Shown here: in pieces, positions 59,565-63,939 of the stretch
Position numbering within the stretch: position 1 is the first letter of the stretch
Layout of the letters: the number at the start of each line of letters is the position of its first letter
DNA from: an uncultured Nitrosospira sp.
GTDB taxonomy: Bacteria > Nitrospirota > Nitrospiria > Nitrospirales > Nitrospiraceae
Assembly: GCA_900696515.1 (NCBI GenBank)
Contig: CAADGK010000039.1
Coordinates: 62,001 to 126,000 of the forward strand
Reading direction: 5' to 3'
DNA length: 64,000 nucleotides
Notes under the pieces: generated by a model
What the model was told of the DNA's origin: nothing
The model's input: only the letters and a program-made list of their open reading frames with translations
Databases searched by the model: none
Made by a program: the position numbers and the translations under genes

Positions 59565-60335
59565 TCATCGGAACTCGGCCAATTTGTGCTTGGCCAACTT
59601 GGACTCATCCGACGAGGGGAACTCCTCAAGCACCCGTTTCAGATTCTTTCTCGACCTCACCAGATCGCCGGTCTCGGCCGTCGCTAGCCCAATTTTGTAG
59701 AGCGCCGCCGGCATTTTTTCATTTCCGGGATACTCTGCCACAAGGTAATCAAAGGTCTGGATGGCTCGCCCGTAATCTTTCAAGTTGTAGTAAGACTCTC
59801 CCAGCCAATATTGGGCATTGGGGGTCAGCGACGTCCCGGGAAAATCTTTGATGAACCGCTGAAATCCGGCGATGGACAGCTCATATTTGCCGTTCAGATA
59901 ATCGTTGTAGGCCAAGTTAAACGCCGAGGTCGGCGTGAGGCCCGATGCCGTCACCACAGCCTCGACCGGTGGCGTCGACTTCACCGCCTTCGCAGCGCGC
60001 AATTCCGATGAAGCGTCCGATTTGGCCGATGCCTGACTGACCGTTTCTTCCAACTTTGCGAGGCGGCTTTCCAACTTTTGGACACGGCTGGTCACGTCAT
60101 CAACACGTGACTTGGCCGAATCGGGTTCTTTTCCATCCTTACTCCGCTCAATCGCTTCCAACCGGCGGACCACGGCGTCCACCCGTTGGTGATCCTGGTC
60201 CTGCGTTTTGGAGATCGTGGAAAGCTGGTCCCGGGTCTGCATGAAGTCCGCATGCTTGGCACACCCGCTAAAAACCACCCCCCACCACAGGCACCCTGCG
60301 AGAATCACCGCGGACATGACGCTACCGGCTCGCAT
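59565..60335 (-). CDS. cpoB: Tol-Pal system protein CpoB/YbgF (intact copy)
   Basis: 256 residues. A signal peptide ends in a lipobox-like FSGC (VILAGCLWWGVVFSGC). A coiled-coil segment (about 30-105; SRVDDVTSRVQKLESRLAKLEE) drives trimer formation, and three TPR units follow (AFNLAYNDYLNGKYELSIAGFQ, NAQYWLGESYYNLKDYGRAIQTF). CpoB coordinates peptidoglycan synthesis with outer-membrane constriction through TolA and PBP1B. It lies 3 bp after the disrupted paralog and shares its last domain plan. Confidence 0.92.
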   Translation of the reverse strand: MRAGSVMSAVILAGCLWWGVVFSGCAKHADFMQTRDQLSTISKTQDQDHQRVDAVVRRLEAIERSKDGKEPDSAKSRVDDVTSRVQKLESRLAKLEETVSQASAKSDASSELRAAKAVKSTPPVEAVVTASGLTPTSAFNLAYNDYLNGKYELSIAGFQRFIKDFPGTSLTPNAQYWLGESYYNLKDYGRAIQTFDYLVAEYPGNEKMPAALYKIGLATAETGDLVRSRKNLKRVLEEFPSSDESKLAKHKLAEFR

Positions 60336-60338
60336 GCT

Positions 60339-60929
60339 TTACCGCCCCTCCTTGAGTTGAGCCAACTTGTCGGACGCTTTCCCCGCCTCAACGCTTCGGG
60401 GGTAGAGCGTGACAACCTGTTTGAAAGCCGACGAGGCTCGCTTCTTATCCTTCATGGCGAGATAGGCGTACCCTTTCTTCAAAAGGGCCGACGGCACTTT
60501 CTCACTGCTCGGATAGTCGACCTCTACCTTATCGTACGCATCGATCGCTTTCTGAAAATCTTTTTTCCCAAAATAGGATTCCCCCAACCAAAATCGCGCG
60601 TTCGGCGAAAGGTTTGAATTGGGAAACTCGTCGAGAAATCCGGAAAATCCCTGCCTGGCTCCTTCCAAATCCCCTTCACGGAATAAGGCCAATAACCGCT
60701 CATAGCGAACCCGATCGGGGGAGTCGACGGTCCCCTGAACGGAATCCGGTTTGGATGACTCTTGAGGAGGAACGATCGTCGTCGCATTGCCGGAGGTGTC
60801 CTGAACGGAGGAAACTTTTAGTCCTTCCCCCCCCCCCCTCGGAAGGGGACTCACTCGACCCCAGCGACGAATGCGGGGACGCTTTGGGCGCCGGCTGCGC
60901 TGACACAGGCTTATGCGACACCTGCTCAA
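60339..60929 (-). pseudogene. CpoB/YbgF-like protein, 3' part (after the frameshift)
   Basis: The downstream portion of a gene that begins at 61731. In this frame the TPR domain runs from about codon 75 (RYERLLALFREGDLEGARQGF, NARFWLGESYFGKKDFQKAIDAY) to the stop. The first 35 codons of the frame, before the G-tract, are not authentic. With 11 instead of 12 G in the run at 60827-60838 both parts join as one 463-residue protein with a coiled-coil N-terminus. As sequenced, translation of the TPR part would need slippage. Confidence 0.85.
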
Positions 60930-61731
60930 TCGTCTTCACCAGGGCATCAATACGGTTGTCTTGTTCGTCCAGACGAGCCGTGACCCGTTTCCCTACGGTT
61001 TCCAATGCCTTGGTGATGGAGGCCACACTCCGATTCACATCCTCCGCATGCGTCGACGTAATTTTTGAATCCGCTTCGATTTTTCCCGCAAGGTTCTTCG
61101 AGAGATGCTCTCCTTCAGCGACACGATCATTCAAACCGGTGAGCGCGTCCCGAAACCCGGTCAACGCCTGATTAAACTGCGAAAACTTTTGGGAGATCTG
61201 CTCCAACCTGTTCTGATGATCCGTCAACTCCTTTTGGTGCCCGTCCAGCTTCATATCGACGCGCTTTGCCAACCCCTCATTCGTGCGCTGCACGACGTCA
61301 ATGACTTCTTTCTTGAGCGCCTCCATCGCCTTTGACAGATCGTCCAGACGCGCGGACACCTTCGCATCTTGAGTGTCAATGCTCTTCTGCATCCACAGAT
61401 AGCGGGTGCTGCCGTCGGTCTCCAGCTTCGCCGCGAGCTGCTCCAGTTTCTTGGTCTGCTGTTCCGCCTGTGCCGACCGATATTTGAGATCTTCCTGTCT
61501 GGCCTGAAGATCTTTCGCGAGATGCAACGTCTTCTCCAGCTCCCCTCGCAACTGGGGTATCTCATATTCCCGCAACGTCGTAATTTCTTGAGTCTGCTTG
61601 GCGCTGGTCTGCTTAAAATCCTTTTCAGTTTTCTTCAAGTCCGACTGCTGTGCGACACAGCCTGGCATGAAGAAAACGCCTACAGCCAAACTCAGTAGCA
61701 TGCCATGCGTGACTCGCAGTTGAGAGTTCAT
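60700..61731 (-). pseudogene. CpoB/YbgF-like lipoprotein, 5' part (before the frameshift)
   Basis: Residues 1-300 are authentic: lipoprotein signal (MLLSLAVGVFFMPGC), then a long coiled-coil (RGELEKTLHLAKDLQARQ to QKFSQFNQALTGFRDALTGL). The frame runs through the G-run at 60827-60838 and ends in a short non-homologous tail (GRTKSFLRSGHLRQ). Pal and tolB precede it on the same strand, so it belongs to the Tol-Pal cluster. Could be a sequencing artefact, a phase-variable gene or a real loss of the TPR domain. Confidence 0.85.
60827..60838 (-). repeat. Homopolymer run of 12 C (12 G on the coding strand)
   Basis: Twelve C in a row inside the first cpoB-like gene. This length joins the wrong frames; one base fewer restores a single 463-codon gene, and one base more brings a stop two codons later. 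Confidence 0.9.
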
Positions 61732-61795: not shown

Positions 61796-62518
61796 CTACT
61801 TTCCGGCCTTGACCACGAGATGCCCCCGCCGATTCATCGAGTAGCAGTGCTCCGCGTGTTCCGTGCAAAACGGCCGTTCCTTTCCATAGGAAACGACCGA
61901 GAGGTGCTGGGGAGGCACGCCCAACTCAACAAGATAGTTTCGAACGGCTTTCGCCCGCTTCTCTCCCAGCACCAAGTTATAGGCCGAGGTGCCTCGCTCG
62001 TCACAATGTCCTTCGACCTTCAGTTGCGCTTGCGGATTGGACTTGATCCACTCCGCATCGCTGCTGAGTGCGTGGCGCCCTTCATCGGTAATCGAAAAAC
62101 TATCATAGGCAAAAAACACATCCCGCAAGCCGGCTGCAGCCGACGCCGTCTGTTCCGCGCGTATTTCAGCAAGTTGCCGCGCGGCAGCCCCAGGGTCAGA
62201 CTTGGCCATCAGCCGGTTGCCGTTTGCACTCCCCATGCCGCTTCCGTTATGACCGCCGCTCCCCATGTCACTCCCCAGCCGTTCTTCTGATGGGTTCCGA
62301 TCCAATCCGCTGAGACCGTTCGCATCATCTCTCCCGGACAACGACGTATCGGGAAAACTTGAACTGCCCCCCCCCTTCGCCCCTCCGCTCCGTGCCATCT
62401 CTTCTTGTAACGCACGAGCATCTCCTCCCGACTGAACCGCTTTCTTTGAGCAAGCCGGACTCACCAAGAGGAGCATACCAAGAATCATTGGCCAGGAGGC
62501 GACTGCTAACGTTTTCAT
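61796..62518 (-). CDS. pal: Peptidoglycan-associated lipoprotein Pal
   Basis: 240 residues. Lipobox VSPAC (Cys23) follows a hydrophobic signal (WPMILGMLLLVSPAC). The N-terminal 115 residues are a Gly/Ser/Asp-rich linker, longer than in E. coli Pal. The OmpA-like domain (about 125-240) has the peptidoglycan-binding FAYDSFSITDEGR, VEGHCDERGTSAYNLVLGEKRAKAVRNYL and LSVVSYGKERPFCTEH. It anchors the outer membrane to peptidoglycan and pairs with TolB. A run of nine G on the coding strand lies at 62367-62375 in the linker (AKGGGSS). It starts 80 bp after tolB. Confidence 0.95.
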   Translation of the reverse strand: MKTLAVASWPMILGMLLLVSPACSKKAVQSGGDARALQEEMARSGGAKGGGSSSFPDTSLSGRDDANGLSGLDRNPSEERLGSDMGSGGHNGSGMGSANGNRLMAKSDPGAAARQLAEIRAEQTASAAAGLRDVFFAYDSFSITDEGRHALSSDAEWIKSNPQAQLKVEGHCDERGTSAYNLVLGEKRAKAVRNYLVELGVPPQHLSVVSYGKERPFCTEHAEHCYSMNRRGHLVVKAGK

Positions 62519-62598: not shown

Positions 62599-63939
62599 TC
62601 ACGAAGCCGGAGACCACGTCGGCGCGCTATTGTGAGTCCCCGTAAAGGTAATTCGTTCCAAGTCTTTCCCGTCCGTATTGATCATGTAAATATGACTCTT
62701 CCCGTCCGCCGTTGAACTAAACACAATATGACGTCCGTCCGGAGACCAGGAAGGGGAATCGTCCACCCCAGGCCCGGTCGTCAGTTGCACTCGCTTCTGC
62801 CCATCGGGAGTGATCAAACAGAGCTTATACTCTTTCCTTGGAGTCCGACACACATACGCGATCCAATTCCCCCGTGGAGACCAGGCGGGAGCGGCATTGT
62901 AGTCTCCCTCAAACGTCAATCGGCGCACATTGGATCCGTCCGAACTGATGAGGAACACCTGAGGTCCTCCGTTTCGGTCTGAGGTAAAGGCCAACTCTCG
63001 GCCGGACGGCGCCCAGGACGGGGACAGATCTCCGCCGGCATTCGTCGTCAGCCGTTGCACCGCTTTCGTGTGGGTGTCCATGCGATAGAGCTCCGCGTTC
63101 CCCTCATAACTCGACGAATACGCGAGAAAATTCCCATCCGGGGAGAGGGCCGGCGTGATGTTCAATCCGCCCTGTGAGACCAACGTCCAGCGTTTTCCAG
63201 TGGCAAGCTCATAAAGATCGATATCCTGTGCGTTCCGATTGCGGTACGTCGTAAACACCAGAAACCGGCGATCGGGAGACCATCGCGGCATCAAATTCAA
63301 AAACCCGTCCGCCGTCAGCTGTCGCGGGTCATAGCCGTCATAGTCCATGATAAACAATTCACGCGCCGAGCCCAGCTCGGAAACATAGGCGATCTTCGTC
63401 CGGGCGATCCCCGGTTCCCCGGTATAACGAAACACCAACTCATCCGCAAACCGATGGGCCATCAGCCGGACCACCGAGGTGGAGCCCACGTAGCGTTTCC
63501 CTCCGACAACCTCATTGTTCCCCGCGTCATAGACGTAGCCGTCCATGTTCACATCGGAATCTTTAGTCCCGCTCTTGATTCCGGCTCGTCCCCACACCAC
63601 GACCGATACGCCATTCTCAACCGCATGCTTGAACGACGGATCCGGCTCAGCCCCGAGCTGCCCTGCCTTAATGCCGAGACCATTCACATCAACGAGGGCG
63701 AATACCAAGGAGCGACGAACATCCGCCTTGAGCACCTCCTCAATACGACTTCCGAGCTTCACACGCCCTTCCGGCGACTCTGCACCGCCCAGATTTTCAA
63801 TTCCGGCAATCGCCAGCGGAATCTTTTGAAAATCCGATCTTGTCGCCTCGAGAAACACGTCGGCCGCGCCGGATTCAATGATCCACACGAGGCCGACCAT
63901 GGCACACAAACCGCTAATCACGAGCGTACGCAGCGTCAT
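62599..63939 (-). CDS. tolB: Tol-Pal system protein TolB
   Basis: 446 residues. Signal peptide (LVISGLCAMVGLVWIIESGA) then an N-terminal alpha/beta domain (FLEATRSDFQKIPLAIAGIENLG) and a six-bladed WD-like propeller with repeated W-S-P-D motifs (MPRWSPDRRFLVFTTYRN, SWAPSGRELAFTSDRN, AWSPRGNWIAYVCR, SWSPDGRHIVFSSTADG). TolB is the periplasmic partner of Pal and TolA in outer-membrane constriction. The ATG at 63939 lies right after the end of the preceding gene. Confidence 0.96.
   Translation of the reverse strand: MTLRTLVISGLCAMVGLVWIIESGAADVFLEATRSDFQKIPLAIAGIENLGGAESPEGRVKLGSRIEEVLKADVRRSLVFALVDVNGLGIKAGQLGAEPDPSFKHAVENGVSVVVWGRAGIKSGTKDSDVNMDGYVYDAGNNEVVGGKRYVGSTSVVRLMAHRFADELVFRYTGEPGIARTKIAYVSELGSARELFIMDYDGYDPRQLTADGFLNLMPRWSPDRRFLVFTTYRNRNAQDIDLYELATGKRWTLVSQGGLNITPALSPDGNFLAYSSSYEGNAELYRMDTHTKAVQRLTTNAGGDLSPSWAPSGRELAFTSDRNGGPQVFLISSDGSNVRRLTFEGDYNAAPAWSPRGNWIAYVCRTPRKEYKLCLITPDGQKRVQLTTGPGVDDSPSWSPDGRHIVFSSTADGKSHIYMINTDGKDLERITFTGTHNSAPTWSPAS

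Follow-up and report, generated by a model that had tools for sequence, protein, structure and literature searches.

Homopolymers usually vary in length in Neisseria once they reach 8 nucleotides (PMC5084427). From a large survey of frame transitions in prokaryotes it is expected that most isolated frameshifts validated by homology result from sequencing errors, the others being recent indels (PMC3711429). In transcripts of E. coli and Buchnera, where homopolymers reach at most 11 nt, insertions were found only in A/T runs (PMC5574713). With regard to the protein family, a lipoprotein ancestry of CpoB is described outside Proteobacteria (PMC12204202), and the lipobox-like ends of the cpoB-like genes presented here agree with it.

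The window, i.e. the whole 64-kb stretch of DNA analysed here, comes from a Nitrospira draft genome of 4.585 Mb in 144 contigs. Positions 60827-60838 are occupied by exactly 12 C on the plus strand, that is, 12 G on the coding minus strand. This run (60838-60827 in the direction of coding) links an ORF for a lipoprotein-like coiled-coil protein of 343 aa to an out-of-frame ORF for a TPR domain (Table 1). The frame opened by the ATG at 61731 ends with the stop at 60700, and its 343 aa include a 45-residue out-of-frame tail. When tract lengths were compared by translation, the TPR frame (stop at 60339) was open only at 8, 11 or 14 G. A frameshift at the tract between the coiled-coil and TPR halves, and a protein of 463 residues at 11 G, had been claimed in a sequence-only reading of this DNA; the reading of frames confirmed both, with a single protein of 463 aa at 11 G and with 8 and 14 G also read through. 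An internal restart yielding a separate TPR protein was rejected, as a restart scan gave no suitable start and the first ATG is residue 124 of this part. If the 12-G form is real, the cells carrying it would secrete a 343-aa coiled-coil fragment devoid of the TPR domain.

Table 1. Features of the broken gene and its surroundings (positions in the window)
Feature	Position	Strand	Basis or comparison
Broken gene, N-terminal part, encoding a signal peptide that ends in a lipobox-like MPGC, followed by a long coiled coil and a Gly/Ser linker	60839..61731	-	closest 29 relatives 70-87% identical
12-G homopolymer in the linker between coiled coil and TPR	60827..60838	-	shifts the gene frame by one base; missing from 49 orthologues
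Out-of-frame tail after the 12-G tract, up to the stop codon	60700..60826	-	frame reading
Broken gene, C-terminal part, encoding a TPR domain of YbgF/CpoB type out of frame	60339..60827	-	TIGR02795; PDB 2xev YbgF, 6g5s CpoB
Second, shorter cpoB/YbgF-like lipoprotein gene, intact	59565..60335	-	kept in 30/30 loci
pal, intact	61796..62518	-	TIGR02802 128.3 bits, cut-off 125.35
9-G run in pal, in frame; part of the glycine/serine linker after the lipobox	62367..62375	-	sequence
tolB, intact; tolA, tolR and tolQ come next past the window edge	62599..63939	-	tolB by model

The TPR part scores 111.6 bits against TIGR02795 (tol_pal_ybgF), above the cut-off of 90.1, and also matches the solved structures of YbgF (2xev) and CpoB (6g5s). 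The full-length model of E. coli-type CpoB (NF008068) gave 62.3 bits against a cut-off of 383. On the minus strand, genes follow in the order tolQ, tolR, tolA, tolB, pal, the broken gene, the shorter cpoB-like gene and mutL, where tolB and pal were assigned by model, and tolQ, tolR and tolA from their position and size and from the appearance of their sequences. The broken gene is therefore placed by this order in the tol-pal operon, all its neighbours being intact, and its earlier designation as a Tol-Pal cpoB paralog holds with regard to a CpoB/YbgF-type TPR domain (TIGR02795) encoded in that operon. As judged from sequence, its normal product is a conserved lipoprotein-like protein of the Nitrospira tol-pal operon, predicted to combine a long coiled coil with a CpoB/YbgF TPR domain. 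In pal, the linker run of 9 G is represented by shorter runs in relatives, and in two of them 8 G are found nearby.

The downstream cpoB-like gene shares about 39% identity with the broken gene over the TPR part and is without the long coiled coil. In each of the 30 loci examined the two genes are direct neighbours, and they give the impression of old paralogues, each with a role of its own. Because both are conserved and diverged, a simple backup by the neighbour is unlikely. Consequently, of the proposal that an intact neighbour copy secures the basic function, the intactness stands, but the backup is disfavoured by the low TPR identity and by the presence of both genes in every locus. As a general feature, Nitrospira tol-pal operons retain two adjacent, diverged YbgF/CpoB-like lipoprotein genes (59565-61731, minus strand, in the window), one of which has a coiled coil of unusual length.

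Counting the source genome of the window, 79 genomes of the genus were compared, and 76 of them contain DNA matching the broken gene. From other species, 49 distinct orthologous sequences were collected, the window's own being excluded; the loci L077 and L005 share an identical sequence of the gene. Coiled coil and TPR domain are encoded in a single frame in 49/49 orthologues, so the position of the tract, at the frame change between two halves of a conserved gene, is not due to chance. In these orthologues, G/C runs around the linker are at most 7 long, and usually 3-5. Close relatives have GAAGGAGGGGAT at the linker site; compared with them, 8 G would give the same protein length, and 11 G a protein longer by one codon (glycine). 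We infer from this comparison that the G-run probably arose recently and in this lineage only, within a linker tolerant to change.

The tract is the longest homopolymer of the window, and when the window was shuffled 400 times with its dinucleotides preserved, just 1% of the shuffles contained a G/C run of at least 12. In the whole genome, twelve G/C runs of at least 9 were detected (ten of 9, one of 10 and one of 12), so that the tract is the longest G-run in the source genome and the only run above 10. For one genome, a lone 12-mer is no more than mildly unusual.

Purifying selection still acts on the out-of-frame TPR part, as estimated from substitution ratios. Its omega is 0.05-0.15 in comparisons with relatives, overlapping with the values among intact relatives (median 0.077, range 0.042-0.135), while the coiled-coil part has a dN/dS of 0.08-0.13, against a slightly lower median of 0.067 in relatives. 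Apart from the tract, the gene has no other stop or shift of frame. Since omega is close to that of intact relatives and no other lesion is present, the gene was working until recently, or still is. An old pseudogene is ruled out on the same grounds, although a very recent loss would stay invisible.

The quality of the assembly was assessed by comparing the window with the syntenic 64 kb of a relative (G005). No real gene other than the broken one was split in this comparison, the weaker candidates being antisense or upstream stop-to-stop stretches. Elsewhere in the genome, the tracts of 9 G that fall in readable coding sequence are in frame, among them those in pal, in a gene for an ABC transporter and in one for a large membrane protein. 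A noisy long-read assembly is ruled out by the intact neighbours and by the lack of any other gene split against G005, and a two-colour poly-G artefact at a contig end by the location of the tract, 70 kb inside a contig of 193 kb. Thus, the assembly is not generally poor or indel-ridden, yet a slippage error is likeliest at its longest G-run. Among assemblies of relatives, a pure run of 53 G (G016:C1:163729-163781, L060) is most likely a sequencing or assembly artefact, and a run of 17 G beside an ambiguous base (G008:C8:218033-218049, L139) is probably a gap artefact.

The combined evidence points, with good probability, to a conserved gene carrying a lineage-specific G-run that is off by one base through recent slippage or a length error, and neither to a selected switch nor to an old pseudogene. 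This explanation spans two histories because the present data do not separate an in-cell from an in-vitro indel. The likelihoods attached below to error, recent indel, phase variation and recoding are judgements and not computed values. That only the length is wrong, the organism having an intact gene with a true tract of 11 G or some other in-frame length, appears to us quite plausible, if somewhat short of probable. The frameshift is isolated in a gene intact in all 49 relatives, its coding sequence is free of decay, it lies at the longest G-run of a draft in 144 contigs, and singletons of this kind are expected to be mostly errors (PMC3711429). Against this, the assembly is clean elsewhere, about 64 kb containing no second split gene, readable coding runs of 9 G are in frame, and a tract 70 kb inside its contig is no end artefact. 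Assembly error, brought forward earlier as the main alternative to phase variation, keeps its standing, but the rest of the window has no excess of frame breaks that would speak for it. A real +1 allele produced by recent slippage, or a minor one turned consensus, neutral or mildly harmful and not an evolved switch, is a serious though tentative candidate. In-cell slippage is nearly as natural as error, because homopolymers of at least 8 are commonly length-variable in Neisseria (PMC5084427), and a lineage-specific tract within an undecayed coding sequence is in line with it. The genome contains mutL and a full-length mutS; on these grounds a loss of mismatch repair was rejected, and slippage would be expected to be lower. 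Given the purifying selection on the gene, a population with the off form in majority is less expected.

Evolved phase variation, in which reversible slippage of the G-run toggles the TPR half and mixes envelope phenotypes in the population, is unlikely. An intragenic, frame-swapping tract of 12 G in a gene for an envelope protein, together with a second run, of 9 G, in pal of the same operon, would suit such a switch, and the frame reading agrees with a long simple repeat whose change by one unit alters expression (8, 11 and 14 G are read through, 12 is not). On the other hand, contingency genes would be expected to keep their repeat at the locus in relatives, while here the tract is conserved in none of the 49 relatives of other species, in which no G/C run around the linker exceeds 7; they would also be expected to come as a set of loci, while this genome has only one run above 10 and, among its twelve runs of at least 9, the readable coding ones are in frame. 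In addition, the protein is periplasmic or lipoprotein-like and no obvious surface antigen, and mismatch repair genes are present. When 20 long G-tracts from six other genomes of the genus were inspected by eye, no clearly split gene was seen, and a literature search retrieved no report of phase variation in Nitrospira. The claim of phase variation is thus not supported as far as an evolved switch is concerned. Also unlikely is the specific version in which a free-living nitrifier lineage would use slippage at a newly arisen G-run to toggle between a full-length and a TPR-less form of a coiled-coil/TPR lipoprotein associated with Tol-Pal, with mixed envelope and division phenotypes. Should the tract turn out to differ in length among cells of the population, this would represent a rare slippage control of a cell-division or envelope factor in an environmental nitrifier. 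Recoding, in which full-length protein would be made from the 12-G gene through slippage of RNA polymerase or a +1 shift of the ribosome at the run, is very improbable. A long run is slippery in principle, and reading resumes exactly in the TPR frame; nevertheless, the site is unconserved, with all 49 orthologues in one frame, a frameshift-stimulating RNA structure was not found beyond chance (z +1.09), and G-rich sequence was not slippery for RNA polymerase in E. coli and Buchnera, in runs of at most 11 nt (PMC5574713).

For the explanation by recent slippage or length error, the following course can be suggested. Poorly conserved glycine codons of the linker (GAA GGA GGG GAN in relatives) would have been converted into a pure G-run by A-to-G changes; where close relatives have GAA GGA GGG GAT, such changes would give GAG GGG GGG GAA in the window, with 8 G in frame. 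The run would then have been lengthened through slippage, and the assembled length of 12 exceeds the readable 11 by a single base. This additional base may be a recent slippage mutation in the sequenced cells, or a slippage or consensus error in library preparation, sequencing or assembly. More generally, a homopolymer frameshift in a single draft genome should not be taken for phase variation if relatives are without the tract.

Compared with CpoB/YbgF, the gene has in common a C-terminal TPR domain above the TIGR02795 cut-off, an N-terminal coiled coil and a place adjoining pal and tolB. It differs in its length of about 460 aa (about 260 aa in all in CpoB/YbgF), with a coiled-coil region of roughly 250-280 residues, in failing the full-length E. 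coli CpoB model, in a lipobox-like signal and in having a second YbgF-like gene next to it. With poly-G contingency genes of Neisseria and Campylobacter it shares a long intragenic G-run in which one base gained or lost toggles the frame, whereas here the tract is unconserved, no genome-wide set exists, the product is not obviously surface-exposed, and the run is read from one assembled length. No difference is detectable from the GeneTack 'singleton' class (PMC3711429), which the locus resembles in its occurrence in a single genome, in the support by homology for an undivided gene and in the homopolymer at the break.
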